Source: Vitis vinifera (lineage: Eukaryota; Streptophyta; Magnoliopsida; Vitales; Vitaceae). From it: a stretch of 64,000 nt of DNA. Of this stretch, positions 9,791 through 43,500 are shown piece after piece. The stretch lies in contig NC_081806.1 in assembly GCF_030704535.1 (NCBI RefSeq), positions 4,041,001 through 4,105,000 of the forward strand, in the 5' to 3' direction. Numbering within the stretch: position 1 is the stretch's first letter; every line of letters starts with the position of its first letter. Made by a program: the position numbers and the translations under genes. The notes under the pieces are model-generated. The model was not told where the DNA came from. It was given only the letters and a program-made list of their open reading frames with translations, and did no database searches.

Positions 9791-10575
9791 TATTTTTATA
9801 ATCATATGGAAACTAGTAATTTTCCCTAGAAAATAATCACGAAGGATGAAACTAGTAATTTATGGAGTCCATGAAGTTACAAAAATGGAAAGAACCAGGG
9901 AGGGACGCGAGCATTTGTCCTTTTCTAGTGCTTAATTTTTATGATTGTATTTATTGGGAATACGTGAGCATCAACTGAAGCTCCATCATTTTTGTTTCCA
10001 TTGATCGGATTTACAAAGTTAGAAGGCATATAAATTGTCGGAAAGCGGCCGAATTAGTCAAAGTAAGAATCTAACTTTCGGAAATGAATCGATTAGAAGT
10101 TGAATTTGGATGTTCCGGAAAGATCCGTCCAATTGCGAGGCATGAATATCAAGAACAACTCAACATCAGTGGAAAAAGGAGGCGTGTGAGTGAAGAGAAG
10201 TGGCGTGGGTGCACAAGCAACCTTCTCGTAGCCTAGGCTGATCTGCGGACACGCAATCAATTTATCCTTCTTTTTCGGAGAACAAAACTTAAAACTCAAC
10301 TTGAGGTCTTCACAGCCCCAGCTGCCCTCGGTGCAGTGCCGGTTTCAGTAAGCAAAGTTAAAGCTAAAGGTAAAGCTAAAGCCAGAGGCATAGCGTAAAA
10401 GCAAGAAAAACATCGAACCTACAAACTCGGCCCATGAGCAAATACCCCACGAAAGTTTCTCTCTGTCCCCACTTGTAAGTTTTTATTTGTTGGTTTCTAA
10501 ATTTGGGTTGCGCTCACAGTACAAGGGTTTGGAGGTTGAAGGAGAGTTTAACGAAGACGGTAGGAGAGAGGGGAG
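9791..10575 (+). other. Upstream region of the intact STAY-GREEN gene
   Basis: Holds no gene. Homology with the second STAY-GREEN copy starts only at about 10430, so everything upstream of that is private to the intact copy. I could not pick a TATA box with confidence. Senescence-factor sites (NAC, EIN3, ABA-response) were not clear enough to call. Confidence 0.5.
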
Positions 10576-11890
10576 ATGGCTACTTTGACTGCTGCTCTTG
10601 TGCTTCCGTCTGAGCTCAAACCTTCTTTCTCTCCACACCAAAGATCTCTCTTCGTTTGTCGAAGAAGACCAAAGAAGAGTCACCCTGCTTTTCCTGTATG
10701 TGTATCTTTTTTTTTTCTATGTGGTTTTGACTAGTTTTCAAGGGTTCAGTGTATTTTTATCTCTTGTGAAGTTGATGGGTTTGATTGGATCAGGTCGCAA
10801 GGCTGTTTGGTCCTGCAATTTTCGAAGCTTCAAAGCTTAAGGTTCTGTTTTTGGGAGTGGATGAGAAGAAGCACCCAGGGAAGCTTCCTAGAACTTACAC
10901 GCTTACGCATAGTGACATAACATCTAAACTCACTCTGGCTATATCTCAAACTATAAACAACTCTCAGGTAATCATGATCCTCGAAACCCAGATCAAAGTG
11001 ACGTTTTGTTATCGATTTTAGCTTGTGGGGTTTGAATATTATTTCTCTTATCTGTTTATGAGTCGATCTGGATGTATGAATGAATTTAAAAACAGAGGAA
11101 AACAGGGGTTGACTGAGAGGTATTAGAATACGAAAAAAAACAGAGTCAAACATGGATTATCGTTTGTTTAGCATGGATTTGAAGCTAATTTTGATGTTTT
11201 ATCCTGGTTGAGTTGATCACAAGAACTGAAAGAATGAAGGGTAATTGGAGTTCTGAATTGCAGTTGCAGGGGTGGTCCAACAGATTACAAAGAGATGAGG
11301 TGGTGGCAGAATGGAAGAAAGTGAAAGACCAGATGTCTCTGCATGTGCACTGCCACATAAGTGGAGGCCATTTCCTTCTAGATTTGTGCGCTAAACTTAG
11401 ATACTTCATCTTCTGCAAAGAGCTTCCAGTGGTAAATATCCAGCAATCTCCCAAGTATTGGCTTAGTTTCTTCTAGTTGTTTAGTGTAACAAATTAATTT
11501 CTTAACGGAATGATGAAAAAATCACAGGTTTTGAAGGCTTTTGTTCATGGAGATGGCAACCTGCTCAACAATTACCCAGAATTACAGGAAGCTTTGGTTT
11601 GGGTTTACTTTCACTCGAACCTCCCAGAATTCAATAGAGTAGAATGCTGGGGGGCGCTCAATAATGCAGCGGCGCCTCCTCCTCCTGCCGCCGGTGCTGG
11701 CGGTGGTAGGGTGGAGGCACACCAGGACATGAGGCAGGTGGAACCATCAAGCAAATGGGAGAGACCAGAAGAGCCATGCATTGAGAACTGTACATGTTGC
11801 TTCCCACCAATGAGCCTCATCCCATGGTCACAAGATCTCGCCCATGAAAATATTCATGATACCCAAAAGGGATTACGGCAGCAAACCTGA
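10576..11890 (+). CDS. SGR: STAY-GREEN protein (Mg-dechelatase), 4 exons, intact
   Basis: Exons 10576-10695, 10794-10967, 11264-11431 and 11528-11890 join in phase 0 through GT..AG introns to give 274 aa. The family enzyme is plastidial: it removes Mg from chlorophyll a to make pheophytin a, the committing step of leaf degreening, and it binds other chlorophyll-breakdown enzymes at LHCII. Residues 1-40 are a basic transit-type leader. The conserved core runs from VARLFGPAIFEASK (41) through TYTLTHSDIT and HVHCHISGGHFLLDL to the YPELQEALVWVYFHS stretch (about 171-184). The C-terminal Cys-rich motif P-x3-C-x3-C-x-CC-FP-x5-P lies at 234-253, which places it in the SGR rather than the SGR-LIKE subfamily. 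A Pro/Gly/Ala linker (about 201-214) is lineage-specific. The start is supported by family length and the absence of an alternative in-frame Met before the core. Confidence 0.95.
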
Positions 11891-11982
11891 CCAGATGATC
11901 TTTACTCTTTAAGAGTCTGTAGGCTGCTATTCACTATTTTCAAGCACTTGCATTGCTACTGTAAAATTTGTTGTAAAATGTA

Positions 11983-11988
11983 AATAAA
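11983..11988 (+). terminator. Polyadenylation signal of SGR
   Basis: AATAAA lies 93 bases after the SGR stop. The same TGTAAATAAAA context is kept in the second copy at about 17560. Confidence 0.55.
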
Positions 11989-12476
11989 AGGTTCATATTA
12001 GTCGGCATGGTGGGTTGGAACATTTATGGCTATATGTCTCTGTTCATTACCATCGTCTTTGTACAACGTGACTGCACAATCTTTCCCTGTTTCAGAATAC
12101 TGTTAGTTGCCTTCTCAGGGCCCTGAATGATGGCCATATCCAAGTATCGTATTTTGGTATTGTGCTGGCTGTTTGATGGGACCAAAACCAACTACATTGA
12201 CACATAACAATAGGAAAGGAACAATCGTGTTCACAATAAAAGCACGATTTTTTTTTTGATATTTGTGCGGTAGATCTCAACCTGTAAGACGTGTTGAGTT
12301 CGAATACTCTCCCTATTAACATCTGATTTCCTCAAATTGTGAGGTCCATTGGAGTCTAGTGCCATGTCCATATGCAATGCTCCGCCACTAATATTTGTCA
12401 TATATAAAAATGAAGAATTGAGAGGATTAGAGAATGGAGCAAAAGAGATTTTTCTTGGGGGGTGGGGTGGGGTGGG

Positions 12477-13006
12477 GGGTTGGGTGGGAATGGCAAGGGG
12501 GTGGGTTCGGGACGGGTTGCCCCCATCCCAACCCCGTCCCGTTTATTAAAAATAATTCCCATCCCCATCCCGTTTAAAAAATTAAACGGGGCGGGGTGGG
12601 GCGGGACAGGTATGGGAAATTCCCAAACCCGCCCCGTTTAGCCTCTTTTTTTTAAAAAAATTTGCTTTTAAAATTTTTAATTACATTAAAATAAATATAT
12701 TTATAAATAATAAAATTATTATATTTTTTATAACTTATTTTATTAATTTTTTTTATTATTATCTATATATTAAAAATAGTAAAATAAAATTAATTTTAAA
12801 TTTTAAATTAAATTAAATTTTAAAATTGATTTTATATGTAAACGGGGCGGGGCGGGGCGGGGCAATACCCGAACCCGTCCCAGGTTTAAAAAAAAAATCT
12901 CATACCCGTTAAAAACCCGTTTATTAAATTTCAACCCCGTCCCATTAGGGGCAGGGCAGGGCGAGTACCCGAAAAAACCCGCCCCGTTGCCATCCCTAGG
13001 GTTGGG
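12477..13006. mobile_element. hAT-type MITE with 8-bp target duplication
   Basis: The element spans 12485-12998 and is flanked by a perfect 8-bp direct repeat GGGTTGGG (12477-12484 and 12999-13006), as expected of the hAT superfamily. Termini are imperfect inverted repeats: TGGGAATGGCAAGGGGGTGG at the left, and the complement of CCCGTTGCCATCCCTA at the right. Subterminal AACGGGGCGGGG motifs recur on both strands around an AT-rich centre. It has no coding capacity. A shorter run of similar phrases at about 60860-60980 may be a truncated relative. Confidence 0.88.
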
Positions 13007-16000
13007 GGGTTGGACAGGGGGGGGTCCGAAGGTGGTGGTCATCCACCATCATATTGAATGCATTTATAACACTTACCTTTGGATGTCCACGGTATTAAGA
13101 TGAATATATCTCATTAAAACTTGAATATATCTCATTAAAACTTTGCTAGTAAAAAATCTTAGAGGAAAAACCTAACGAATGGAAAAAAAAAGATAATATC
13201 CTTATAATTCTTTAGTTGCTCTTAGTCTATAAGGACTACCTTGTTAAAAATCTTACTAATAAAATCCATTGGGACAAAACTTTCATGAAGGGAGAAAGAG
13301 TACATTATGCTAATAATATCCTTGTATAAACTTGCTCCCCCTCATTCTTATATTCTTATACTAAATCATTACAAAATATCCTTGAGTTGGTGAATTTCAA
13401 TCTTGTGTATTAACCTCTTAAATGTTGAGGTTGACAATGACTTTGTAGATAAATTTACAAGATTATCACTTGAACATATTCGTTGAATATCAATTTTACG
13501 AATCTTTTGGAGTTTATGTGTATAAAAGAATTATCTGTTTGGTTTTATCCCATTTAATATAACATCTTTCCCTCTATTTGTTCAATGTATGTAGTATTAT
13601 CTTCATATAATATTGCCAAATTGCCTTTGATAGATGAGAGTCCACATAATTCCCAAATATGCTAGATCATATATTTTAACCATATACATTTATGACTTGT
13701 TTCATGAATTGTAAGTATTTTTTAATGGTTTGATGATATGACCACCATCGTCTATTTGACATATCTCCATGAAATAATAATATCATCACAATTAAACACA
13801 TATAGATCTTGTTTGTGGCCTAACTTTATATGAATTTAAAGGGTCTCCTGCATTTGTATATCTAAATAATTATAGCTTTGATTCTCTTGAATAAAATTAA
13901 CTCATATCAATATTTTCGTGAATATAGTACAATATATGTTTGATATCATTTTAATGTCTTCGAGTTAGAACAAAACCGAATCTTGTTAATAAATTGACAT
14001 AAAAAACAATCTATGGGCATCTAAAATTGGCACGATACATACGTGCACCAATAACTTTAAGATATGATACTTTAGGACTAAATAATTCTTCGTCATTTTC
14101 ATAAGGGTGGAATGAATCAGTTTTCAAGTTAAGTGATTGAAGAACTTAAAGGACTTGCTTTATACATATGAAAACATTTCAAAAATTTCTTAGTGTATGT
14201 TGATTGATATACTGAACTCTAATTGGAAAATACTTTATTTATAATCTGAGTCAAATTTTTTTCCTCAAAATCTATCATCTCAAATTCCTTTATCAAATAA
14301 TTTATTATTCTTGTAAGCTCTTCAAGAGTCCCAATAAGATTTACGTTATTAACATCCATTATAATAATTGCAAATTTTCTTTCTAATTTCTTTAATAAAA
14401 ATGCATGAACATATATATATATAGGGTTATTCACACAATGTCTTTTTGTAGGTATTTACTGTCACATGCATTCAGATTGTTTCAATCCATACAAAGATTA
14501 TTGTAACTTGATCACATATGTGTTGCAAGGCTCTCCATTGCTTGCTTTTGGTAATTTAAATTATTCAAAAAATTATTTGCTTCAAACATTTTAATCTTTT
14601 AAGGAATTATTTGTTTTATACATTTTAAATCCTTTAAGAAATTATTTTCTTCATGCAATTTAAATCTTTTGGGAAATTATTTGTTTTAGACATTTTAATA
14701 TATATATTAGCTATGTAATAAAGTATAAATTAAGTCCTTCATAGACTATTGATCATATAATTAAATCATTACATGAGTTAATACAAAGTTTCTATAGGAA
14801 CCTTATGCTACTAATCATTTTTTTTTTATGATATCATTTTTCTTATTGTGCTTTCATACAAATACTTATTTGTACTCGACAAGCTTTATGTCTTCAAGTC
14901 TTTAGACTACAGGTCCAAATGTTTCTCATTTTATTAACGAGTTTAATTTTGTCTACACTGTTTCTTTCCAATTTTTACCAATCATTTTTATATTGGGATT
15001 TTTCCATATTTTGTGGTTCAAAATTTTCATCATTTCTTATGATTTTAAAGGCCACTTGGAAAGCGAAATTATTGTTAATAACAAAATACTTTTGATCTCA
15101 TTTTCCCTCGTATGTACATAACTTATTGAGATCTCATTATTTTCAAATAGTTGTGCCTCTTTAGAGGCTATTTATTCAATTTATACATTTTCAAAGGTTT
15201 TTTATTCAATATTTACTTCTTTAAGGGTATGTGATTTATTTGTGCATCTTTGGGGATTATAGATTCATTAGTTTTCGATTGAGTAGTCATTTTTATAAGC
15301 TCTTCTAGAGTGCCAAGTTTTCCTTCAAGTCCACCACTCTTCAAACATATCTTAAACTCACTTATTAGGTATCTTATAAGGACATTAATTTGTGTTAGGA
15401 TATTTGCAATCGAGATATATGACTTTGTTATTTTTTTTGTATCAATAAATGCATTTGGTAATTAGCAATCCATAAAATGGTTGTAAAAACATTACTTGTC
15501 AAGGGTTTTATATATATCTTATGATCGATAAAGAATCAAATCTTATATAAATCCCAAGTCTTGGTGAAGAAACCATTTTAGAGAATTGTGTAGGTTCAAT
15601 TGGTTCATAAACTACATAACTAAACGTTAGTAAGTGAGAAATTTGATTTTTTTTTTTCCAACATATGCTCAATATACAACCCCTAATTGACGTGTAATAG
15701 TTAATAAATGTTTGAAAAGTAAATTTGTTAGCATTATCAAAATCTATAATTTTGATTGAATAATTTAGAAATTGTGTTTGTAATTTTATTATTTATGCAA
15801 TGAGCTTGGAAAAGGTAAGCATTACATTTAAAAATGAGACAAATATATGATCACCTGATTGAAACATCTATTAAGATCATAAAATAATGAAATAATTCAC
15901 TGGGTGGATACTCCCTGAGGTAGACGTAGATATGATTTTAGTGAAACATGGCATACCTATCAAATTAATCAGAATTCCCATGTGAGTATTTGACGTATCA

Positions 16001-16060
16001 TTGAAGAGATTGGGTGAAGCACAAAAATTTTTGGATCGTTGCTGGCTTGCGAGAGTTAAA
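13007..16060 (-). mobile_element. Degenerate antisense copia remains between the SGR copies
   Basis: On the minus strand, 14219-14434 encodes a relic of copia reverse transcriptase: NVNLIGTLEELTRIINYL followed by KEFEMIDFEEKN, matching the region around and after the YVDD motif (family form DD..IIGT.EEL....YLKKEFEMKDLG). Here the YVDD position reads DVNN. The surrounding 3 kb has the same antisense character but no further intact domain. No host gene is seen. This block replaces whatever promoter the second SGR copy once had. Confidence 0.7.
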
Positions 16061-16199
16061 ATTGGCCCATAATATGCAAATACCCCACGAAAGTCTCTCT
16101 CGCCCTCTTATAAGCTATTATTTGTCGATTTATTTGGGTGAAGCAAAAAGAACTCGAGGTTGAAGAAGTGTTCAGCAAAGAAGGTAGGAGACAGGGGGG

Positions 16200-17472
16200 A
16201 TGGCTATTTTGACTACTGCTCTTGTGCTTCCGTCTGAGCTCAAACCTTCTTTCTCTCAACATCAAATTTCTCGCTTCGTCTCTAGAAGAAGACCTAGGAA
16301 GAGTCACCCTGCTTTTCCTGTATGTGTATCTTTTTTTTCTCTGTGGTTTTGAATAGTTTTCAAGGGTTCAGTGTATTGTTTTCTCTTGTGAAGTTGATGG
16401 GTTTGATTGAATCAGGTTGCAAGGCTGTTCGGTCCAGCGATTTTCGAAGCTTCAAAGCTTGAGGTTCTGTTTCTGGGAGTGGACGAGAAGAAGCACCAGG
16501 GGAAGCTTCCTAGAATTTACACGCTTACGCATAGTGACATGACATCTAAACTCACTCTGGCTATATCTCAAACCATAAACAACTCTCAGGTATTATCGAT
16601 TTTAGCTTGTGGGGTTTGAATATTATTTCTCTTATTTGTCTATGAGTCGATCTGAATGTATGAATGAATTCAAAAACAGAGGAAAACAGGTTTGACCGAG
16701 AGGCCTTAGAATAAGGAAAAAAAAAAAAAACAGAGTCAAACATGGATTATTGTTAGTTTAATTAGAGCATGGATTTCTAGCTAATTTTGATGTTGTCATT
16801 GTTGAGTTGATCACGAGAACTGAAAGAATGAAGGATAATTAGAGTTCTGAATTGCAGTTGCAGGGGTGGTACAACAGATTACAGAGAGATGAGGTGGTGG
16901 CCGAATGGAAGACCAGATGTCTCTGCATGTGCATTGCCACGTGAGTGGAGGCCATTTCCTTTTAGATTTGTGTGCTGAACTTAGATACTTCATCTTCTGC
17001 AAAGAGCTTCCAGTGGTAAATTTCCAGTATTCTCCCAAGTATTGGCTTAGTTTCCTCTAGTTGTTTAGTGAACAAATTAATTTCTTGACGGAAGGATGAA
17101 AATAATCGAATATCACAGGTTTTGAAGGCTTTTGTTCATGGGGATAGTAACTTGTTCAATAATTACCCAGAATTACAGGAAGCTTTGGTTTGGGTCTACT
17201 TTCACTCAAACCTCCCAGAATTCAATAGAGTGGAATGCTGGGGGCCGCTCAATAATGCAGCGGCGCCTCCTCCTGCTGCCGCTGCTGGTGGTGGTGGCGG
17301 TGGGGTTGACGGACAGCCGAACATGAGGCAAGTGGAACCATCGAGGCCAGAAGAGCCATGCATTGAGAACTGTACATGTTGCTTCCCATCAATGAGCCTC
17401 ATCCCATGGTCACAAGATCTCGCCCATGAAAATACTCATGATACCCAGAAGCGCTTACAGCAGCAAATCTGA
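16200..17472 (+). pseudogene. STAY-GREEN tandem duplicate, frameshifted in exon 3
   Basis: Exon equivalents are 16200-16319, 16416-16589, 16858-17015 and 17119-17472, with all GT..AG junctions kept. Exon 3 is 158 bases against 168 in the intact copy. Ten bases (AAAGTGAAAG) are missing at about 16911, between short GAAG-like repeats. The frame then runs EWKTRCLCMCIAT and stops at TGA 16942-16944, so translation yields about 126 aa with no second half or Cys-rich motif. Exon 4 itself is still open and keeps PEEPCIENCTCCFP. Exon 2 also carries changes at family-constant sites (HPG to HQG, PRTYT to PRIYT, SDIT to SDMT). A GTGAGT appears at 16941, but its use would not restore the frame. The broad exon conservation suggests a fairly recent loss. 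A sequencing error is the alternative. Confidence 0.9.
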
Positions 17473-17567
17473 ACTGATGACCTGACTCTAGAGTCTGGTT
17501 GTTGCTATTCATTACTTTCAAGCACTCGAGTTACTGCCGTAAAATTTGTTGTAAAATGTAAATAAAA

Positions 17568-19128
17568 TTTGGTGTTTAGGCCAAACACATGTTTGGTCGG
17601 AGGGAAGGACAGTGGAAATCGACATCTTGTTTCTTTTCTCATCCATTCTCATATTTGGATACATTAAATAAATGAAATGTTGGAAGAGTGCATGAATATG
17701 TGTTGTGGTGTATAAGCTAAAGTGTACCTTTCCCGTAGATAAGGGACTGAATACTTTAAGTGTCTTGTATTGTGAACCATTTCTTAAATCTCTTGGATGT
17801 ATGAACAGGAAAGTGAGAGTCTTCTACGTTCATGGGTCCAAGCCTGTCAGGTGGGATTTCAGATACCTCGATCTAAGAAACCTTAATTTGAGTCCATTAT
17901 AACCCTCTTACATCGGAGTCCATGGTTGACTTTCTCTCCACACATCTTTTGGGGGTCCTTCAAAATCTCAATTTTTTTAATTGGTTTTTGTATCTTAGAT
18001 GACGTTTTGGTTGTTGAATCCCAAAGGTAAAACATTTATTCCCTATTGAATCAAGACTGATCTTAGAGGAGGATAATCATCTCTCACTCCTCAGTCACAC
18101 TAATCCAATAAGTGTCCTATAATTCTGTTTGTTTCCTGTTTATTCTGTTTTAAGCTTAGTTGGTTTAAGTTTCAAACCTTAAATTGTTTTGAACCAATAT
18201 GAAATCTTATTCATAAATGGATGTCAATTTATTTCTAATGAGAGATATTTTGATTCTTTGAATATAAAAAAATGATATAAAACATGTTAAACTTATTATT
18301 TAACTTCATCTTCCTTACGTTTGTTTGACTTTTTGCGGTTATTGTCAATATTCTTGATTTTTCATTTTCACTCGCATTGTTATCTAACATTGAAATGTAA
18401 ACAAATAATAATTCAAACCTATTTTTAGGTGCATCTAAACATAAAAATTGAAATCACCAAATTCATTCATATTTAAGAATGAGAATCGAAATAAAGGCTT
18501 GGTAACTGTTTTTTTTTTTTTTATAACATAAAAAAATAAAAAACCCAAAAAAATATGGCCGACAACCAAAAAAATAGAAAATATTTTTAAAAAAAAAATA
18601 GAAATCATAGTGTTTTGAGTTAATACTTTTAAGTAATTTATTTGTTTTAAAAAATAATTATACAAATATTAAGAATGATTAAAAATAAAATATTATATGT
18701 CAAAATTATTTTTAAATTATAGAAAATAAATTAAGAACATTTTACATTTCAAATAAACTTTTATTATACAAAAATTAGGGTCTATTTGGCCATATTTGCT
18801 GAAATTTATTTTTAAAAACTGTTTTTTATTCTTTAACTTAAAAACAGTATTTAAAACAAGTTTCTAAAAACATAATTAGCGGGTCGTGTTTTCCTTTTGT
18901 TTTTAAAAATTATTCTATATTTTACTTTGCTTTTAAAAAACAATAGTCAAATGATATTTGAAAATTTTAAAAACGGTTTTCTATTTTTAAATCATACCAT
19001 CAAACAGATCTAGTTTTCTAAATTGTTTTTTAAAATACGTCCCGAATAAACCTAAAATATTTATGCTTATTTTCCATTCTCATTCTCATTTATCCAACAT
19101 GGCCTTAAAAAGTGATGAAAAATGAAAA
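17568..19128. mobile_element. 1.56-kb insertion in the 3' flank of the SGR duplicate
   Basis: The 3' flanks of the two SGR copies align up to the polyadenylation region (about 11990 and 17567) and again from GGTGGGTTGGAACATTTATGG (12009 and 19131). The second copy therefore has extra DNA between these points. The outer edges carry weakly inverted phrases (TTTAGGCCAAACACATG at left, the complement of CATGGCCTTAAA at right). A separate MITE-like unit lies inside at 18776-19056. The 65-codon frame at 17705-17902 has no recognisable domain. Confidence 0.6.
18776..19056. mobile_element. MITE with TAGGGTCTATTTGG-type ends
   Basis: Starts TTAGGGTCTATTTGGCC and ends CCCGAATAAACCTAAAA, which are imperfect inverted repeats. 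The interior is AT-rich with TTTTTAAAAAC phrases on both arms. This is the common plant hAT-like MITE pattern. I could not see a clean target duplication. Confidence 0.6.
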
Positions 19129-19400
19129 TGGTGGGTTGGAACATTTATGGCTATGTCGGTTCACTATCATCCTCAACATGTGAATACAACTGTGATGTAC
19201 CATTCGAGGGCCCTGAATGGAAATGTGCAGGCTGTTGGAGGGGGGCCCAAACCGACCACATTGACACATAACAATCATGTTCCAAATAAAGCACGTTTCT
19301 GATATTTGTGCAGTGGCTCTTAACCCGCGAAACGTGTGAACTGTATATTCTTCCCATGGAGATATCTCATGGAGTCCATTGGAGTCTACTCCCGCTTGAA
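19129..19400 (+). repeat. Continuation of the SGR segmental duplication
   Basis: Diverged copy of about 12008-12370. The phrases GTGGGTTGGAACATTTATGG, CATTGACACATAACAAT and TCCATTGGAGTCTA occur in order in both. It marks the far end of the duplicated segment. Confidence 0.8.
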
Positions 19401-26100: not shown

Positions 26101-29085
26101 CTCCAAGCAGCTCAGGGTTCTATAAGGTTTTGAAGCTATTTGAATTTAGGAGAACGGAAAAAGATCCACATAAAATTGGGGGCAAACTATGATACCATTC
26201 TTCCTATCCCTAAGCATTGTTGCCCTTCTAAATTTACTTGAGTGATTCTACATTCAACAACTCCCAATTATGAAAATGTCTTAGAAAACATAGACTTCAG
26301 TGCCCACAGCCTCCAATCTCCCCATAAAAAACAACCACCCAAGCATTCTAAATAAAAACAATTGGGAATAAATAAAAAAATAAAAAAAGGAGGTACTCAA
26401 TAACAACTCATGACACCAAACGCTATGTTAAAACTTACATTAAAAAAAAAAAAAAAAAACTGTTTATGAAAGAAGCTTTGCCCATCCTATCCTTGTCACT
26501 TTCCACAATCCCACTCCCAAAAACTCTCTAGAGCACCAAATACTCACCCCTTGCAAGGATTATACATCCAACACCATTACTCAAGCATGACCTTACTAAG
26601 GAGGAATGAGTTTCTTTGACCTAGTTCTTGCTTTCCCTTATCAAATAAAAGATTGTACCATTTCACCAGCACCTCACAACCACCGCTAACACCATTACTC
26701 GAGCATGGCCTTACAAAGGAGGAACAAGTTTCTAAGATCTAGATCTCGCTTTCCCTAATCAAATAAAAGATTATACCATTTCACCAGCAACTCACAACCA
26801 CCACTCTTAACACACAGAAAGTTAAGCCTAATCTTTTCTGTTTTCTTTTTTTTTTTTTTGGAAACAAAACAAATTCATTTCATTGAATGGTAAATACAAA
26901 GAAGAGCAACCATTCCAACATGTACAATGTTAAGCTTAATCTTCTCATGCCTCAACAACATCATTCTAGGGATAAAAAGGAGGGACAGGCAGTAAATAAG
27001 AAAGCTAGACAAAGTACTCTTCAACGAAATTAATTTCCCTCCCCTAGACAAAGTACTCTTTCATAACGTTACCCTTAACTAATCCTTCATGTCCTTGGGA
27101 TTTAGCAACCAAGGGAATTTGAGAAAAAATCTTGCAGTGAACAACTACTAGTTCAATGGAAAACCCTTCACATATTCCATTCATTCTAGTCCGCTAATTT
27201 ATTAGATTGGCCATAATCTTAAACATTTATCATCAACCACACTGTCTCATATCACTATTAGTGATCACATTTTGAAATTAAGGAGAAAAATGTTTCTAAG
27301 ACATAACCTACAATTAATGGAGTTCAAATAGGGGCCACTGAGGAAGCCTATCCCGAACAATAAGTTTTCTGTCCTTTGCTTTTAATTTCAAAAGTCCCCC
27401 ACTTAAATTGAAAACTTTGTGGTCCTTTTGTATTAATAGCACATTCCCTTATTTAAAAAATACAAAAACAAAACAAAATAAAACTGCAAACTGAATCAAG
27501 AAGTTTCCAAAATCTTGTCCTGAATAATAATGCTTGTTTCCAATTGTAAGACTACTTCAGAAACTTCTAAAAAACCCATCAACTTAAGTATTTGCTTTTG
27601 AAGTTTATCTTCTATAGTGGAAAGAACCTGAGAAGTATGGTTTAACAGGAGCTATAGCAACATATAGCACAAAATGGTGAAATAAAATTCATGTGATTGA
27701 TGCAAATTGAGTTAAGGCTTGTCTGAGTTGAGTGAACATCCAACATATCACTATCAGCATCTAAATTCATCAGGGATGATTGGCATCCTGTATTATCATA
27801 TTTCATTAATTGAATTTACAAAGCCTATGTTGATGTAAACAAATGGCACAACACCCAAATAACTGAACGACCACATGCCTTGCTCAAATCTAGAACTTGC
27901 AACAAATACGAGATTTTGATCAACTAATAATTTCCAACCTGGAGTTTTCCATTACTTGTTCCAACAGCAAGATGTGTGCCACGCTGCGCCCAGCCTACTG
28001 AACAGACACTTACATCCATTCCCAGGTCACACAACTTTGTCACCTGCAGATGGCAAGGAGAAGGAAATTAATTAACTCAAAGAGCAAAGTAGGTGAGACA
28101 GAAAATAGAAAAATGAAAATTTATGGAGGTAAACATAGAGAAGTACTAAAACTCTGTGTGTATGGCCACATTAGCGATCATGATCATTTTTGTAGAATTC
28201 GCAAGGCAAGCATCAAACACAAGAGTGCAAAACAATCATGCCAGGTTACAACATATACACCAACCTCAGATTACATTCAAAAGGGAACAAATTTAACTCT
28301 CATTTAGAATGGAAAATCCAGAACTCACCTTGCTACTACAAGCATTCCATAAATAGACACAATTGCCCAACCCAACTGCCAACACATTATGCGCGGACCA
28401 ATCAACGAGATTCAGATAAAAATCATCTTGTAATGCCGGAGCATCCAAAACCTAGTCAAAGCACGATAACCTCCATAAACCATAAAACCCAAGGACAGAA
28501 ATTTATGTCTAAGCCAACACATCATCAATCAAACAAGAAATTCACCTTATAAGGCGATCGAGGAACCTTCCGTGCTGCCTTGACCGGGCCATGACTCACG
28601 CCCGGCAATGCATCTTCAAACCCGAAAGGCGACAGCGAGTGCATCGACTGCCGAGTCTCCGTCTTGTACCGAAAAATATTCCGGCTCGACGGATACACAG
28701 AAGAATTCTTCCCATCCAATCTCATCAACTTATCCGGCGTGCCTGGGGAACAGACTCCGGCATCGGGCCCGAATAGGGCCGTCCTCAACAACGTCGCATA
28801 CGCGCCAGAGCCATCCTCTCGCCCCTCCGCCGGCGAGTTAGCCAACGGGGAGATGTCGAAGAGCGCAAAATTGGAACCTGTTCTGCTGGGGATGAATCTA
28901 TCGCTGTAAATCGTTCTCGACGGCGACGGCTGATACCCTACACTGATCATACGCTCAATGTGGGTCGACGGGGTTACGGGTTCGAGAGATAGAGGGGTCT
29001 TCGACATTGTAGAAGGTAGATTTAACCCTGAGGAGCTTCTGAGAGCTGATTGGTTGGTTGTTGAAGGTGTTGTGGGATCATCCAT
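20178..29085 (-). CDS. CCS52A: CCS52A / FIZZY-RELATED (CDH1-type APC/C activator), 10 exons
   Basis: Exons in gene order: 29085-28546, 28451-28329, 28043-27939, 23700-23521, 23197-23135, 23009-22815, 21023-20922, 20830-20768, 20651-20583 and 20231-20178. All are phase 0 and together give 497 aa. The family recruits substrates to the anaphase-promoting complex and in plants drives exit to endoreduplication. The C-box DRFIPSR is at residues 62-68, several S/TP sites (T6, T30, T38, S54 and later) could take inhibitory CDK phosphorylation, a WD40 propeller fills about 181-480, and the protein ends in the IR dipeptide that docks on the APC/C. The wording [16 protein letters not shown] and the RDIRAQDD segment fit CCS52A rather than CCS52B. 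The third intron is 4.2 kb with transposon remains. Splice sites are canonical; the fourth donor, GTCAGA, is weak. Confidence 0.97.
24590..25270 (-). mobile_element. LINE (non-LTR) remnant in CCS52A intron 3
   Basis: On the minus strand, about 25048-25190 reads [31 protein letters not shown], close to the Cys/His reverse-transcriptase-associated domain (zf-RVT) near the 3' end of plant LINEs (family form GW.LANRC.LC...E...HIL..C). T-rich runs at 24592-24620 on the plus strand could be the poly-A tail of this copy. It lies in the same orientation as CCS52A. The frame is broken. Confidence 0.65.
25300..26210. repeat. Diverged tandem pair of about 480 bp in CCS52A intron 3
   Basis: 25307-25789 and 25790-26200 align in order: TCTCC-TAA-A-CCATGCAGC-ATTA, GGTTAGAAT-GGTTA, and GTCAATTAC followed by CAAG-ACCT. 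On the minus strand, the phrase TGGTATCATAGTTTGCC near 26190 resembles a decayed initiator-Met primer-binding site, so these may derive from an LTR element. That part is uncertain. Confidence 0.45.
26571..26806. repeat. 118-bp tandem duplication in CCS52A intron 3
   Basis: The phrase ACACCATTACTC starts at 26571 and again at 26689. Both units contain CATTTCACCAGCA and CTCACAACCACC near their ends. The two units differ by scattered substitutions. Confidence 0.75.
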
Positions 29086-29230
29086 AAGCGATCAGAGTGA
29101 GACAAGAAACCCTAGACCTGGAGCGAGAGAGACAAGAGAGGTAACAGGTTAGGGTTTGCGTATGGTAGAAGATAGATGTAGAAAAATAATGACCGTTTGG
29201 TTTGTGGGAAATTGACAAGAAGCTGTTATT

Positions 29231-31915: not shown

Positions 31916-32833
31916 TCAAGGAGGAGGAGGTGTGTACTCATCCTGAATTGAGGGCATTGTCCTAGTTACAGCAGCTATAGGAGCCCTCACATGCCCAACC
32001 ATGGACACCTGCAAGGCTTCTTCTTCATAGGCTCTCCTCTCCAACTCCTCCATTCTTGATCTCTTCTTTACCTTCACAAACATTGCCACCAGAAGCAATC
32101 CCAGGAGAAATGCACCCAATGTAGCCCCAATGGAGGCCCCTACTGCCACCTTCCACCAGCTCATCCTTTTCCCCTCCTGCAACTCCGGTGACTCCATCAC
32201 CAACCCGAAATGGCCGTGCTTTGATGTGACACAAACATACGGTGATGTCTGGGGTGTCAATGTCACCTTGCCATCATGCTCAAATGTAGCACATAATGGA
32301 ACAGTTCCCGGAGTCTGGACCAGGGTAGTGTTGCTGAAGTCTACCTTGATGGGTGTTTTTCCGGCGAGAATGCCGAGCTCAAAGGGGTTGGTGTAGTTCC
32401 TGTTGTCGCCTGCATTGTATGCCAAAAGGCCTAAAACAGGGGAAACAAGCTGGTATCCAGATAAATTGTAGCTGTCCGAGTATATAGAAGACAAGTTGTT
32501 TCCAAGGTTTTGCCTAATCACTATGACTCTCTCCACACAAGGGCTGACTTTTACCCCGATACCCAGTTGGAATTCCTTGACCTGAGCGCCATACCGGCGA
32601 AGACTACCGCACCTGAATCTCACTGTGTCGACTCGGATGCCGGAGAAGTTGGCCGGTAAGTCTACAGTGTGTAGCATTCCTGTCCTGGAGCGTGTGTTGT
32701 AGGATCTGATGGTGTAGTCTCTGAGGACCAGATCAAGCAGGCGGGCTGATTTGATTCCCTGAGCTTCAGTTTTCATCAATGCAGACGACCCCAATGAAAG
32801 AACTATTAGTATGAGAGGGAAGAGAGAACCCAT
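31916..32833 (-). CDS. DUF1191 family single-pass membrane protein
   Basis: A single-exon gene. The open frame extends up to a Met at 32893 (325 aa), but I prefer the Met at 32833 (305 aa) because it puts a clean signal peptide at the N-terminus (MGSLFPLILIVLSLGSSALM...TEAQG). The extracytoplasmic part follows: KSARLLDLVLRDYTIRSYN, four cysteines and several N-x-S/T sites. A transmembrane helix (about residues 227-253, WWKVAVGASIGATLGAFLLG onward) leads to a basic stop-transfer KVKKRSR. The cytoplasmic tail has a MEELERRAYEEEAL stretch and ends in YTPPPP. This layout and the RVDTVRFRCGSLRRYG and LLAYNAG signatures match plant DUF1191 proteins, whose molecular function is not known to me. Signal peptide and anchor imply the plasma membrane or endomembranes. 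Confidence 0.9.
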   Translation of the reverse strand: MGSLFPLILIVLSLGSSALMKTEAQGIKSARLLDLVLRDYTIRSYNTRSRTGMLHTVDLPANFSGIRVDTVRFRCGSLRRYGAQVKEFQLGIGVKVSPCVERVIVIRQNLGNNLSSIYSDSYNLSGYQLVSPVLGLLAYNAGDNRNYTNPFELGILAGKTPIKVDFSNTTLVQTPGTVPLCATFEHDGKVTLTPQTSPYVCVTSKHGHFGLVMESPELQEGKRMSWWKVAVGASIGATLGAFLLGLLLVAMFVKVKKRSRMEELERRAYEEEALQVSMVGHVRAPIAAVTRTMPSIQDEYTPPPP

Positions 32834-34266
32834 GTGAGGAAGTGAGGTTTGGTCTAAAAAGAAGTTAAAGCTGGATATACCAGGGTTTTCCACTGTTGTG
32901 GGTCTGGTACATTAAAGGAGAGCTTGATTTCTGCGAGAACTGGCTACAATTCAGCTTTTTCCTTCCTGTAGATTCATACAGGAACCGAGTTTTTAAAGAG
33001 TAAAGTTTGAAGTCTGGACTGTTCGGGGAAAGTTATAGATCAGAGAAAACAGAAGCTTGACTTCATTAATAAAAAAAATGGGGAATTCTAAAAGAGGGGA
33101 AAACTTAAAAAATTTTCACGTAGTATAGGGAGTTTTGGAGAGAATATAGGTTAGGTGGGCTGTGAAATTTTAGATCAAAAACTGCCTGTTGGTGTAGTGA
33201 AGGTGGGGGATGAATCGTCCAGAGAATTGACTTCTGGTTTGCATGTAACAGAGCAGACCATCCTCAAATGCACTGCAGTTTGTATAGGCTACATAATCAA
33301 AGATATGCAGTTCAATTTGTCTAGGCCCCATTGAATGACACAGTAATCGAGTTTTAAACAATCCCCAGAAGGACAAAATGTACCATTATTTCATGTTAAG
33401 AAAGGCTACGCGCCGCACGGTGGCATGCACAAAGCGATGCAGTCACTCAAAAGGTTAAGGGTACTTGGCAATTCACCTGTCTTTTGACTGTTTATTTTTC
33501 TATGGAGAAAAGAAAACTTGAAGTATAAGGGGGGGTTAGAGTGGGTTTGGGTGAGGTGGGCAAAGGTTGGGAGAAATGATTCCGGTGGCGTGCGAGGATA
33601 ATGACAATGAGGATCAAAAGGGCTGGCGTGCTTAGGGAATGGAATGAGGGCGCATAGTCTCTGTTTGGGACTCAATTCTCTTTAATTGTATTGATAACTT
33701 GTCCCCCACTCCAACAACTATGGTGGGTCTCATGGTAGCTAGCATGGCATCCCCATTTTTTTTTTACCTTTGATGGCCCCATATGCTCACATGGGGGTCA
33801 TCCAGTAGGTGTAGATCACAAGGAACCAATTAGCCATTTTTCTTTTTGACTGTTCTCTCATGCTAATGGGGCTTTCTGTCTTGTATCTCCATTTCAGATT
33901 TATGCTAAGAATTCCTTTTCTGATGTTGGGACACAGCATACTAGAAAATCCTGAGCAAATCTGGATAGAGTATATACAGGGTATATACTGAGGAAAACCT
34001 TAATTTATTACTCTTCAATGGCGACATTGACTTCACTGAGAGACTAGAAAACATGAAGATGTAGTCTTAGCATTTCCATCTACCCTCACTGTAGATGTGG
34101 GAAAACATATTCTTCCTCAGCAGATACAATCACATACAAGAAAACGAAAATTCTTCTCCGAAGAGGAAAAGTAAAAGCAAGGGATGAAAGCTCTAGGCCT
34201 TAAAAGGAGCCACAAAAAGGGGGCAAGCAAGAGAAAAAAGGCTGGAGGCAGTGGTGATCTCTTCCA
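32834..34266. other. Spacer between the DUF1191 and expansin genes
   Basis: Contains the 5' flank of the DUF1191 gene and the 3' flank of the expansin. The 89-codon minus frame at 33406-33675 and the 68-codon frame at 33170-33376 show no recognisable domain. I see no repeat here. Confidence 0.5.
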
Positions 34267-35770
34267 TCAATGGAAGTTCACATTGGCCTTGTAAGTCATT
34301 CCTACATTCCAGTTAGAGGGAGCCACATTGTTTGCTACTAGAATCTGCTTGGTTGAGTAGGAGATGAGCTTAAAAGAAAGAGCTTGGCCTTTCAGAGTTG
34401 CAAACGCCTGGTATGAGGCCCCCCAGTTGTGGCTCATACTAATCCACCCTGTTTTGCTTCCCTTCACCCACATGCTCGCGATATCTCCTCCTCCACCAAC
34501 ATTCATCACATATACCAACAGCCAGTATCCGTTCCCTTGGAAAGAAAATTGAAGCCCGCCACGCTTAACACATGGTACTCTACAAGAATCATGCAGAACG
34601 ATTAGAATTTATGTTTGTTAAATCTTTTCTGGGGAAAAAAAAATTGATTATCTAACTTTTCATGTTGCTGTTAGCTTTCCAATAAGGTTTCTGTTAATAT
34701 TCAGATTAATTTTATCTTCCAGAAATTCAACCTTTCAGACTAATTCCTGGAAGAAACAGTCCCCATCTGCGCTTTTAGGAAAAGTTAGAGAAAGGGGTCA
34801 TGTATGGAGGTTGAAACTTGAAAGTGAGATGTAATTGAATGATGTTTTAGAAACCAGTATAGTGGCATTAGGAATGTCTTTGTTCCTTAAAGTTGCTTCC
34901 AAGGGCACCATACTGGGCATTAGGAATGTTTTTGTTCCTTAAAGTTGCTTCCAAGGGCACTATGCTGCTTTTCCTTTAGGTGATGTGGATTGTTTAATCT
35001 GCCATTTTGAAATACAAAACCAACTGCTCTGAGAAATCAAAAAATCTTAGGATTATACGTAAAGGCATCATGTGGGGGCATTATGAGTCATGACCAAGAA
35101 TAACATGCATCATGTTTTTTCTGGATTTCAGAAAAAACATAAACTCTTTGGCAAGGAATAAGTTGTGAGAAGGAAGGGGTACCTGCGGTACATGACTGGG
35201 ATAATGCCAGCCTTCCACTGAGCAATTTTCATGAAGGCGGGCTTGGACATGTCGAAATGGACCCGTGGTGGGTTGCACCAGCCACCGGCATTGGAGTCCT
35301 GGGCCCAATTAGGTGGGCAAAGGTTTGTAGCAGTGACTGTGGTGTATGGGGACCCTTTATAGCATGCACTTGACTGAACACACTTGATCTGGTAACAACT
35401 CCCACAAGAATATCCATTGTTAAACAGTGTGGAGCTCAAAGCCACTGTGTCTGTCCCGTAACCGTTAAGGAACAAGTTTCCATAGCCACATGCTCCTCCT
35501 AAATTCACAAACAAAAAACACCCAACACTTAGTAAACACATTTTTCAATAATGTGAAGCATTATGGCATAGATAAAGTTGCATTGAGAGCCATCCACTAC
35601 TAACCCATGGTCTCGGAGGCGGTGTCGTCGCCATAAAAGGTGGCATGCGCAAGTGCCCATCGGCTTGGCCTGAAGACAGGTGCAACAGCGAGGGTTGATT
35701 TGGCAATGATTGTGAATACCAATCCCATGAAGAGGAACCTGCAGCCCCATGAGTGAAGGGAAGAAGCCAT
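34267..35770 (-). CDS. EXPA: Alpha-expansin, EXPA7/EXPA18 (root-hair) type, 3 exons
   Basis: Exons 35770-35605, 35498-35183 and 34579-34267 join in phases 1 and 2 to give 264 aa. Expansins are secreted and loosen walls in acid growth by disrupting cellulose-matrix contacts, without hydrolysis. There is a hydrophobic signal peptide (about 11-30), then HATFYGDD (42-49), GGACGYGNL (56-64), paired Cys, WCNPP, and the diagnostic HFD at 136-138 in the six-stranded barrel domain. The C-terminal carbohydrate-binding domain (CBM63) carries [27 protein letters not shown] and [14 protein letters not shown]. The [20 protein letters not shown] and terminal ANVNFH phrases resemble Arabidopsis EXPA7 and EXPA18, the root-hair pair, more than the general EXPA ending (GQTFEG..F). 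The clade placement is an inference from memory of the family. Confidence 0.94.
34864..34968. repeat. Short tandem duplication in expansin intron 2
   Basis: Two units begin GGCATTAGGAATGT and share TTTGTTCCTTAAAGTTGC and TTCCAAGGGCAC, with only a few differences. The period is about 53 bp. It lies wholly inside the intron. Confidence 0.85.
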
Positions 35771-37588: not shown

Positions 37589-40500
37589 TCAAGCTTCACT
37601 TCCTTCAGGCAATGTAATCAAGCGTGTCTTTGAATCATACACCATTTGAGTCTCACAACTATAGACAAAATATTATAGACGAGATTTCAAAAAGTCAGTG
37701 GAGAAAATATTGCCTCTTTAACTAATGATCCCAAGAGAATGCTTGCAGGAACATCAATATTAAAAATTCACAATGTCTATCGATTAATGCAGTTAGTAAA
37801 TAGCTTTAAACTTACTTGGAACATTTAAGATTGTTGGTGGTACCACCATTGGAAATTGACAGTATAGTGCCAAAGAACGAAACATTCTCTGTACCACAGT
37901 TTGGGCAGGGGCCCTAAAAAACAATGTTTTATTAGTTGGGCGGTTAAACTGATATAACATGGATTTTCAGTATAAAACCTTATAATAAATGTGTGCAGAA
38001 ATTTTACCTTTAGGATCAAAAAATCTTTCAAAATAAATTTGGTAATTGTCTGAGATAGCCAAAATATGAGGGGCACTGCAGCAAACCACGTGAAAATGAA
38101 ACTGAATGGTTCCTGGAGCTGCAACTCAATGATTTACAGATGAATCAATAAATAATAAGATAACCAGACTTTAAATGTGAGAAGCAATGACTAAGAATGG
38201 TCAAAAGTTTGTTTTTTCAATGAGCAAATCTGATTCAATTGACCAACCCACTCAGCCATTGGAACATCTCATTCAGCATCTTCCATAGTGATAAATGGAG
38301 AATGAGTTATGAGAAATAATTGGCAAGCTTCAATTTCAATAAAAAGTGTATCTAATCACTTACCTTCAAATGGTCAAAAACTAGAACAAAAAAATAAACA
38401 CTGAAATGCATAAGAATCAGAACAAAAATAATAATGATAATAGCTCACCTCCAAAAGAAAAGTGATTTCAAATCCAGTCACATCATCCAGGAAGAAAAAC
38501 CTGTCAATACAAAAAGAATTGAACAGGTTTAGATCCACAAAGTAGGCTACATGCCAGTTGCTTTGGGACAACAGCAATTTATTCCTCCAAACCACCACCA
38601 TAAAGAAGAACCAAAAATTCCAAAAAAGAAGATAAAATTTGAAGTTAAAGGCATACTAATACAGTGGTGCAAATTCTACTTACAATGACAGTGCAACAAC
38701 AGCAGCTGGGACATTCAAGAGGAACATCTTGAGATAGTCGACAGACAGATCACTATAAACCTATATGGAGAAGATGAAAAAAAGTTAACTTGAGTGTATC
38801 TAGTAAATAGTAACTAGTAGCAAGTTGCATGCACTAGAATACGACTGCAAAAAAGATATCAATAAAGGTCTCCAATAAAAACACATCAACTCTGTTGAAT
38901 TTTGACTTAGTATTTGCTGGAATTTGAATTTTGAATATTGCAGCTGGAGTCTTGCACAAAATCTGCAACATCTAGATATTTTCTTATTTTTATTTGGTCA
39001 AGATTTGGTTTCTATTTTATAGGAAGTAGTTGTTCATCATCTAGTAGCTTGATTTTCTGCTATTCTAATGTCATTTAAGTTACAAGTTCATGTATAAATT
39101 CAGCATTCTTCATCAATAAAATTAGAGCTCCGGTAGCCCAAAAATATATATTTTGTATAAGTGTTAAATCCAAATACCAACAAAGTGGTATCAGAGCCTT
39201 TCTTATCTTGAGGGGCCAGTGAGGTGAGTGAACCCAAACACCTTCTAAAATCATTTAGCAATGGAAGAGTCAAGTCTCACAGTTGCACCATCAATTCTTG
39301 ATGGAGACAATTATGAAACTTGGGCTGTTAGAATGACAGTTCATCTACAAGCACTTGATGTTTGGGAAGCAGTGGAAGAAAATTATGAAGTTCCTCCCCT
39401 GGGAGCCAATCCAACTGTGGCTCAAATGAAGTTGCATAAAGAAAGAAGGACAAGAAAGGCTAAAGCGAAAGCTTGCTTGTTTGCTGCAGTTTCACCATCA
39501 ATTTTCATCAAAATCATGAAAATTGATTCAGCTGCAGAAATTTGGGAGTATCTCAAGGAGGAATACAAAGGAGATGAAATAATAAAAAACATGCAGGTGA
39601 TGAACTTGATTCGAGAATTTGAAATGAAGAAAATGAGGGAGTCTGATGCTGTTAAAGACTATGCTGCACAACTTCTTTCAATAGCAGACAAAGTTAGGCT
39701 GCTTGGAAAAGAATTTTCCAATGAGAAGATTGTTCAAAAGATATTGGTTACACTTCCTGAGAAATATGAAGCTACAATTTCCTCTTTGGAGAATTCAAAA
39801 GATCTGTCAACTATTAGCTTGACAGAATTATTACATTCCTTGGAGGCTGTGGAACAAAGAAGACTCATGAGACAAGGAGATACTGCAGAAGGAGCATTTC
39901 AAGCAAGAATGCAGAAAAATGCAGGCCATAAAAATGGAAAGGTGAACAACAACAAGTCGTGTGGCAACAACCAGAAAAATGGAGTTTTTCCACCTTGTCC
40001 TCATTGCAAGAAGACAAATCATTCTCCACAAAAATGTTGGTGGAGACCAGATGTGAAATGCAACAAGTGTGGTAAACAAGGACATGTGGAGAGGATTTGC
40101 AAAAATCAACAGCAAGAAGAAACTAGTGCAGCAGTTGACTATTGCCAGGAGGAGCAATTGTTTGAAGCAACGTGTTTTGCTAATAAAAGCACCTCTAAAA
40201 GCTGGCTTGTGGATAGTGGTTGTACAAACCACATGACAAATAATCAAGATCTCTTTAGAGAACTTGATAGAACAACTATTTCCAAAGTCAGAATTGGAAA
40301 TGGTGAGTATATTCCAGTGAAGGGCAAAGGAACGGTTGCTATCGAAAGCCAAACAGGTTTGAAACTCATTTATGATGTTTTGTTTGTGCCTGACATTGAC
40401 CAAAACTTACTCAGTGTTGGACAGCTCGTTGAGAAAGAATTTAAAGTTTATTTTGAAGATAGGAATTGCATTATCAAGGATGCTGAAGGCAAAGAGGTGT

Positions 40501-43500
40501 TCAACATAAAAATGAAGGGCAAGAGTTTTGCCTTGAATTTACTGGAAGATGAGCATACTGCTATTTTACAACAAGATAGCACAACAATGTTTTGGGACAG
40601 AAGGGTCGAGCACTTTCATCATGATGATGTGCTCTACATGAAGAAAAATCAAATAGTTGAAGGACTTCCTGACTTAGAAAAAGATCTTCCTATATGTGCT
40701 ACTTGTCAATATGGGAAGCAAACTAAACTTCCCTTTCCAAAGAAAATATCCTGGAGAGCAACCCAAAAATTGCAACTGGTGCATACTGATGTTGGTGGAT
40801 CTCAAAAAATGCCATCCTTGAAATGGAATGCAAACAATGTTTGGTGGATCTCAAAAAATGCCATCCTTGAAATGGAATGCAAACAATTTTGGGCTAAAAC
40901 TGCAAGTAGAGCAGTATATTTTCTGAACATATTACCAACAAAAGTGTTAAAGAAGCAGACCCCTTTCGAAGTTTGGTTTGAGTGTCTTTGCATCTACGAA
41001 GTCAAGGAGGAGTGTTGAATTTTGACTTAGTATTTGCTGGAATTTGAATTTTGAATATTGCAGCTGGAGTCTTGCACAAAATCTGCAACATCTAGATATT
41101 TTCTTATTTTTATTTGGTCAAGATTTGGTTTCTATTTTATAGGAAGTAGTTGTTCATCATCTAGTAGCTTGATTTTCTGCTATTCTAATGTCATTTAAGT
41201 TACAAGTTCATGTATAAATTCAGCATTCTTCATCAATAAAATTAGAGCTCCGGTAGCCCAAAAATATATATTTTGTATAAGTGTTAAATCCAAATACCAA
41301 CAAACTCCAATTCCTACAAAGGTTTAAATTTTTAAAAACTGGAGTATTTATGCTATTCCTCAGCAGACAACTTAAAAACACTAATGCAATGAAATTTTAC
41401 AGGCAAGTCAGGCAATCAATGTTCTGATTTGCAGACAAGTATCTAATTAATCAATACAAGGTAGATAATGATGTTATGAGTCAAAATTAAATCGTGAAAA
41501 TGTAATTGTATTTGTTGGGAGGCTACCGTACCAAACCCAAATAGTACCAGGCTTATAAAAGATGCTGCTTGTATTTAAAGCCACGTGGAGCAAGATATGG
41601 TGGAAAGAATGAGAGGAAAAGAGAAGTGGAGCTTATAACATTGGCTTAACTACCTACTTGGCATTTTTAAAAGTTCATAAATAAATCATATAAGCAGTAA
41701 ATAAATCGAACAACCAACCCACAATAACTTCAAAATAATAATCATGCAGTTTTAGCCATGCAACTTTTAAAGCTTAAATGACACACAGGGTTACATTAAA
41801 GCACACACCATGAAAAGGGAGAAGATACAGAAAGATACACACCTTTTTACTACGAAGACTGCATCTTGGACCCTCAACTACAATTTCACTTCCTTCAATC
41901 TAGAAAAAGAAAATTATGGATAAGAAGAAAGCATAATAATAGCAGCAATTATATGGATGGCCAAACACAGGAAAAAACAAACTTGAAAGCTAAATTAACA
42001 ATGGAAGCTTTTGAAGAATCTTTAGTTGGATAACTTTCTATGTAGCTCCACCCAAATGCAATTGCATCACTTGAACTGAATTCATTATTGTGAAGGAAGA
42101 ACCTCATATAGTATTTTTGAGAGGTGATAGAGAAGTATGGTTTGTGAAGTCTTTAGGTCCTTCCAAAGGCCAAATGGAGGATACTAACTTAAAACCATTT
42201 ATCATAGATCTAAAGTTGGCATCATCAATCTTATTCTACCATTCAACCTTATGTAAAATCATGTATTCTCTTAGTAATAAGTAATCTGGTCATCCCTATG
42301 ACCACCTCAGACCACATCATTTATGGCCTTCAACTACAATTTCACTTCAATCTAGAAAAAGAAAATTATGGACAAGAAGAAAGCATAATAATAGCAGCAA
42401 TTATATGGATGGCCAAACACAGGAAAAAACAAACTTGAAAGCTAAATTAACAACGGAAGCTTTTGAAGAATCTTTAGTTGGATAACTTTCTATGTATCTC
42501 CACCCAAATGCAATTGCATCACTTGAACTGAACTCCTCATTATTGTGAAGCAAGAACCTCATATAGTATTTTTGTGAGGTGGTAGAGAAGTATGGTTTGT
42601 AAAGTCTTTATGTCCTTCCAAAGGCCAAATGGAGCATACTAACTTAAAACCATTTATCATATATCTAAAGTTGGCATCATCAATCCTATTCTACTATTCA
42701 ACCTTATGTAAAATCATGTATTCTCTTAGTTATAAGTAATCTGATCATCCCTATGACCACCTTAGACCACATCCTTTATGGTCTTCACCTTGTTTAAGGG
42801 GACCTTCAACTTAACCATCTCACACCTTGTCACTACTACAATTATTGGTCCTCGTTGCATATGAACAAAGTATGCGAGTCAAAATCCATTTTATCACTTC
42901 TAAGTGCTCCCCTAGTATTTCAATATAATGCATTGTTGGTCTTACATCCATCATCTAAAATTCCCCCTTCAATCAAATTGGTGTAACATGCCAATCACAA
43001 GACACTCAAGTGCCTATCCAATTAATTTATGTAACTTTTTATCATACGTAAGATCTCTTCAATCTCTACCTCCTTGTGGACTGCATCTTACACAAGTGTG
43101 GCCTTACAAGTATTTATAGTGGGTCGAACTTTCTAAAGAGATAGTCATTAGATGCTCAAAAGTCAGCACAAAAGTTTTCTGAGATAGTCATTAGCTGGTC
43201 AAAAATCATCACAGAAGTTTTCTTCATGTATCTTTGGCTGAAGCTTCTATATGGTTGGACACTGTAGAGGCCTCCAAATTAGTGTGGAGTTCTCTAGAGT
43301 TAGGTGGAAGCCTTCGGAGTAGTATAGGAGTATCTAGAATACTTCAAGCAGAGTGTATTGAGTATCAGTTTTAGGAAGATTTTGGACACTCAACAAACAG
43401 TTACAAAGGCAGCTATGAATAGATGAAGGCCCATTTGGTCAGAGCAAAGTCTTTGAGATGTCTACGTGCCACATGGTGGTTGAGAATCTCCTAACTTCAT

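Follow-up and report, generated by a model that had tools for sequence, protein, structure and literature searches.

In the bacterial SGR homologue AbSGR-h, the D34N and D62N exchanges give soluble protein without activity, and the D114N exchange gives insoluble protein (PMC8531759). Tandem SGR-family duplicates have been described in Nicotiana (Nitab4.5_0001714g0050/g0060; PMC13330579), and the word "pseudogene" has no match in the main text of that paper on the Nicotiana SGR duplicates. For grapevine (Vitis vinifera), Table 1 of PMC9656468 lists VvSGR as one gene of 228 aa (VIT_02s0025g04660.1, chr2:4225612..4232509, plus strand), and the text of the same paper mentions three SGR-type candidates, one of which was dropped as too short. 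A review table (PMC12941323) records that an Arabidopsis over-expressor of VvSGR yellows early, the copy used not being stated there. In PMC10500148, the only VvSGR name is VvSGR9, which stands among E3 ubiquitin ligases. Searching titles and abstract openings, with supplements and most subscription papers outside the scope, we found none that dealt with a disabled tandem duplicate of SGR in this species.

Layout of the two copies and the exon 3 lesion

We analyzed a 64-kb stretch of the grapevine assembly (C2:4041001-4105000; hereafter the window, whose first base is position 1). It contains two STAY-GREEN genes arranged head-to-tail, both on the plus strand, with start codons 5.6 kb apart. 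Copy 1 (10576-11890, plus strand) has four exons and encodes a 274-aa product. Its exon 1 (10576..10695), which we take to be the transit-peptide region, is followed by exon 2 (10794..10967) with the THSD aspartate, by exon 3 (11264..11431; 168 nt) with the RDEV aspartate, and by exon 4 with the stop codon (11528..11890), which encodes the D114 equivalent and a C-terminus rich in cysteines. Copy 2 (16200-17472, plus strand) has the same four-exon layout, with exon 1 at 16200..16319, exon 2 at 16416..16589, exon 3 at 16858..17015 (158 nt), and exon 4 at 17119..17472. In both copies, exon 3 may alternatively start 6 nt further 3′. The exon lengths are divisible by three for all four exons of copy 1 and for exons 1, 2, and 4 of copy 2.

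Performing blastn, we aligned 10423-11989 with 16058-17567 (84% over 1,594 columns), and further short matches (19128-19174 and 19218-19337 on the copy 2 side) reach 12294 and 19337. A segment of about 1.9 kb, spanning the entire gene plus some 150 bp in front of it (~153 bp in copy 1), is therefore present twice on the plus strand: at 10423..12294 for copy 1, and at 16058..17567 (main part) and 19128..19337 (3′ remainder) for copy 2. A stretch of ~1.56 kb (17568-19127), absent from copy 1, interrupts the 3′ flank of copy 2. A weak match in the AT-rich spacer (12786-12816 against 18702-18734, E 6e-4) was excluded from the unit. Since the upstream DNA is common for only about 150 bp, copy 2 came without, or has since lost, most of the copy-1 upstream DNA. 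Scanning nine short motifs in 1.5 kb upstream of each copy gave one match per copy, which is uninformative. When copy 2 was used as a DNA query against the whole assembly (495.6 Mb, 21 contigs), the search, which scores only its best candidates, gave two places, namely copy 2 itself and copy 1. The preliminary description had regarded the second gene as a tandem duplicate of STAY-GREEN, and the exon/intron alignment together with the neighboring parent copy bears this out.

The three introns are 92.5 to 94.8% identical where aligned (31 differences over 446 aligned sites) and differ by indels of 1, 1, 2, 2, 6, 7, 8, and 38 nt. Besides the lesion described below, the exons differ by indels of 3 and 12 nt, both frame-keeping. 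Silent coding sites diverge more (33/205, kappa 2) than introns (31/446; Fisher p 0.0006). It had been claimed that copy 2 keeps all four exons and their splice sites. This holds for the exons and for the GT/AG dinucleotides of all three retained introns, but the context of the intron-2 donor (16590..16598) has changed: a 38-nt deletion directly 3′ of the donor turned CAG/GTAATC into CAG/GTATTA, a small added weakness of copy 2.

Downstream of the SGR pair lie a DUF1191 gene (31916-32911, minus strand) and the expansin gene VvEXPA2. An ORF at 28525-29091 gave no Pfam match; to us it looks like FIZZY-RELATED, and a gene order SGR-FZR-DUF1191 is also known from Arabidopsis. Further along, the window carries a Copia-type gag/pol fragment (39249-41018; Retrotran_gag_2, Pol_BBD, gag_pre-integrs) and a 455-bp unit in two tandem copies with 94% matches (41874-42787).

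The only indel between the two third exons is a gap of 10 nt in copy 2, with its junction at about 16908-16913. A microhomology of 4 nt at the gap gives five equivalent placements, and two AAGA tetramers probably gave rise to the deletion, through slippage or through microhomology repair. The grapevine SGRL gene on C18 has the deleted stretch in frame (EWKEVKGEK), and 7y5y_A, a solved bacterial homologue, has the same length as copy 1 across it. As both retain the full length, the bases were lost by copy 2, and a 10-base gain by copy 1 was rejected. The first in-frame stop of copy 2 is a TGA at 16942..16944 (codon 127), so that the product has 126 aa, 116 of them native and 10 out-of-frame. 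Both the 10-bp deletion and the position of the TGA thus agree with what had been noted beforehand, and a disabled second STAY-GREEN copy is confirmed.

Copy 1 scores 190 bits against Pfam Staygreen (PF12638; cut-off 27), over positions 2-146 of the 147-position profile, and both catalytic aspartates align (THSD and RDEV, equivalent to AbSGR-h D34 and D62). The 126-aa product of copy 2 scores 67 bits over positions 2-67, an incomplete domain; the second half of the dechelatase domain is lost, as proposed earlier. The truncated product still has the D34 and D62 equivalents, and the D114 equivalent and everything C-terminal are gone. In 59 homologues, the D34 and D62 equivalents are invariant (59/59), and the D114 equivalent is D in 55 of them and E in the other 4. 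This set comprises 7y5y_A and 58 prokaryotic loci of the 59 found by an alignment-based contig scan; the remaining one (L059) was left out because the contig ends there. Scans with single proteins returned no relatives in 37 stretches of genome contigs and none in 7 of viral contigs. Copy 1 is apparently an intact senescence-type STAY-GREEN gene, and apparently the only one in grapevine. Any copy 2 protein, ending mid-domain, would not be a working dechelatase.

The published VvSGR model

Table 1 of PMC3628503 places VvEXPA2 (VIT_02s0025g04700) at chr2:4249304..4250807 on the minus strand. Subtracting an offset of 4215037 gives 34267..35770 (minus strand) in the window, and these ends coincide, exact to the base, with the end of the stop codon and the beginning of the ATG of the expansin gene there, which puts the window on grapevine chr2. 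With the same offset, the printed VvSGR span maps to 10575-17472, from one base before the copy-1 ATG to the last base of the copy-2 stop, where copy-2 exon 4 ends. The printed model and the window thus describe the same locus. They differ in that the former is a 6.9-kb single gene of 228 aa and the latter holds two genes, with 274 aa for copy 1.

We enumerated coding models of 687 nt that open with the complete exon 1 of copy 1, draw their second and third exons from either copy, and close with exon 4 of copy 2 at its stop. Within these second to fourth exons, no more than a single non-standard GT or AG junction was allowed; exon 1 truncation, copy-1 exon 4, and copy-2 exon 1 were left out. 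The four solutions are of one type, in which exon 1 and an exon 2 are followed by the initial 39 nt of an exon 3 and then by copy-2 exon 4. The corresponding arithmetic, 40+58+13+117 = 228 aa, equals the length printed for VvSGR. The coordinates and the length lead us to infer that the 228-aa VvSGR is the product of a gene prediction that ran across both copies and stepped round the deletion. The published model therefore appears, on the sequence and the printed table, to fuse a working and a broken copy.

A 20-mer printed in PMC5866948 as an exon of VIT_02s0025g04670 (chr2:-4232312) has one exact occurrence in the window, in copy-2 exon 4 (17272..17291, minus strand; 4232309-4232328 by the offset). 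This second paper thus puts a copy-2 exon-4 position in VIT_02s0025g04670, which is a point against the fusion, and overlapping models may exist. The candidate dropped as too short in PMC9656468 could be this g04670 model or the partial SGRL copy on C18. We consider the very probable VvSGR fusion a more useful finding than the pseudogene itself. If the model is fused, primers, probes, promoter choices, guide RNAs, and protein sequences derived from it may hit the wrong copy.

Timing of the loss and alternative readings

Judged from its sequence, copy 2 of this well-known gene is an unprocessed tandem pseudogene of the ordinary kind: its introns are kept, the parent is its neighbor, and it carries a disabling lesion. 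With high confidence, we favor as an explanation of the whole locus that copy 1 is intact and that copy 2 is a young pseudogene of this kind, bridged in the published model.

The preliminary description had held that the loss looks recent and argued this from exon 4. Exon 4 is indeed open in the ancestral frame. However, under random neutral substitution the probability that it stays open is 0.78 with 5 changes, 0.50 with 16, and 0.28 with 31. An open exon 4 survives 16 neutral changes half the time, and we rejected it as evidence of recency. A late loss is better supported by dN/dS in the domain and by the residues 3′ of the deletion.

Leaving out codons touched by gaps, we obtained a pairwise dN/dS of 0.25-0.33 over 265 codons (kappa 1-3; bootstrap 0.18-0.50 at kappa 2) and of 0.13-0.18 over the 156 domain codons (kappa 1-3; bootstrap 0.06-0.32 at kappa 2). 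A simpler count gave 0.24 overall and 0.12 in the domain. The low pairwise value (0.25-0.33) would mean that the decay of copy 2 has barely begun, although the upper limit of 0.50 for the whole CDS, taken alone, allows an old loss.

Within the domain, 10 amino acids differ between the two copies. SGRL agrees with copy 2 at 5 of these sites and with copy 1 at 1, and it differs from both at 4; as SGRL is a distant paralogue, this polarization is rough. The 59 homologues favor copy 2 at three sites (copy-1:copy-2 counts of 1:11 for S/Y and 11:48 for I/V in exon 3, and 2:31 for L/F in exon 4). They favor copy 1 at two, I/M in exon 2 (17:3) and K/E in exon 3 (8:4), which is a point against the favored explanation, and they say almost nothing at the remaining five. 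Five of the differences lie 3′ of the deletion: SGRL has the copy-2 residue at four, and the prokaryotes have it at the fifth, I/V. At K/E, one of the SGRL-matching sites in this part, the prokaryotes lean to the copy-1 residue. If there are zero derived changes, the 95% upper limit for the part of its time since the duplication that copy 2 spent unconstrained is 0.17 by the dS clock or 0.45 by the intron clock; one derived change raises these limits to 0.27 and 0.71, and two raise them to 0.36 and 0.94.

Profile scores were also compared piece by piece. Against the prokaryotic profile, copy 2 is slightly ahead of copy 1 in three of four comparisons (40.7 versus 38.0 bits in exon 4, and in exon 3, 15.3 versus 15.0 after the gap and 11.5 versus 11.4 before it), with 22.5 versus 23.3 in exon 2. 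The Pfam score of exon 4 is 61.6 bits in copy 2 and 57.3 bits in copy 1. If anything, the conservation of copy 2 seems to equal or exceed that of copy 1, the survivor. Copy 2 thus appears to have stayed under constraint through most of its history and to have been lost late. Gene conversion between the copies could mimic constraint; the longest identical run between them is not unusual (1,045 of 2,000 shuffles have one as long).

A loss this late would fit a segregating null allele, with other grape accessions or wild Vitis keeping a working copy 2. We regard this as a minority possibility. It draws on the constraint that copy 2 seems to have been under until late and on the zero-change limits (0.17 or 0.45), but two derived changes would lift these limits to 0.36 and 0.94. 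Moreover, the 12X and present assemblies very probably represent one genotype, in all likelihood PN40024 for the window, and so do not supply independent alleles. Such an allele would be compatible with the pseudogene explanation for the present genotype, and it is plausible that accessions vary in SGR dosage. Should intact alleles of copy 2 persist elsewhere among grapes, this dosage would be a candidate for explaining natural differences in senescence or in the color change of the berries.

Returning to the pseudogene, we considered the fate of its transcript. Nonsense-mediated decay is expected where a stop lies more than 50-55 nt before the last junction. The TGA of copy 2 lies 71 nt 5′ of the exon 3/4 junction, past this limit, so the normally spliced mRNA would be a target of decay. 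A splice form that keeps the frame had been named beforehand as something that would speak against the loss. Such a form does exist on paper: as the lengths of exons 1, 2, and 4 are divisible by three, leaving out exon 3 brings the frame back and gives a product of 215 aa. It lacks the D62 equivalent, the second catalytic aspartate, yet still matches Pfam Staygreen in two stretches with 104.7 bits, which is a counter-point to the pseudogene reading. The stop itself lies inside a donor-like GTGAGT (16941-16946), missing from copy 1, that matches 8 of 9 consensus positions, with 6 matched by the three natural copy-2 donors. Frame rescue through this site was rejected as the stop arises anyway, and rescue by retaining intron 2 or 3 was rejected as either retention gives a stop.

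It is very improbable, in our estimate, that exon-3 skipping yields a stable, catalytically dead 215-aa protein that joins SGR complexes and damps chlorophyll breakdown. The kept frame, the residual domain score, and the strong donor-like site within exon 3 would favor it, as would the descriptions of AbSGR-h as a homo-oligomer (PMC8531759) and of Arabidopsis SGR2 as a negative regulator (PMC9656468). Against it, the skipped form loses the LHVHCHISGG region along with the D62 equivalent and may not fold, and the intron-2 donor context is altered. If it were true, the "pseudogene" would delay chlorophyll loss by competing with the working enzyme, instead of just reducing dosage.

Least probable of all, to the point of being negligible, is an assembly or base-calling artefact, the other objection foreseen in the preliminary description: the finding came from a single assembly, but the VvSGR span from the printed 12X coordinates is 6,898 bp, against 6,897 bp from ATG to stop in the window and ~6,907 expected had 12X contained the 10 nt, and the distance to VvEXPA2 agrees as well, so 12X likewise appears to lack them, and its differing chromosome coordinates mark the present assembly as distinct from it.

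Comparison with related loci

Tandem duplication in this family has already been reported for the Nicotiana pair (PMC13330579), to which the grapevine pair is comparable in this respect. Within grapevine, the SGRL gene (L070; G000:C18:1843500-1850500) has a partial neighbor copy ~23 kb away (L071; G000:C18:1866500-1872500), which is 97.6% identical over the matched 2.3 kb and of whose Staygreen-domain exons we found just the first. This locus resembles the copy 1 and copy 2 pair in having a nearby incomplete copy, and differs in that the SGRL duplicate is partial, not frameshifted. With it and copy 2, both SGR-family loci seen in the genome have a defective duplicate nearby. Compared with the SGR/NYE1 Mg-dechelatase family, copy 1 shares the Staygreen domain, the catalytic aspartates, and the cysteine-rich C-terminus, whereas copy 2 departs from it in having only profile positions 2-67 of 147 ahead of its stop.
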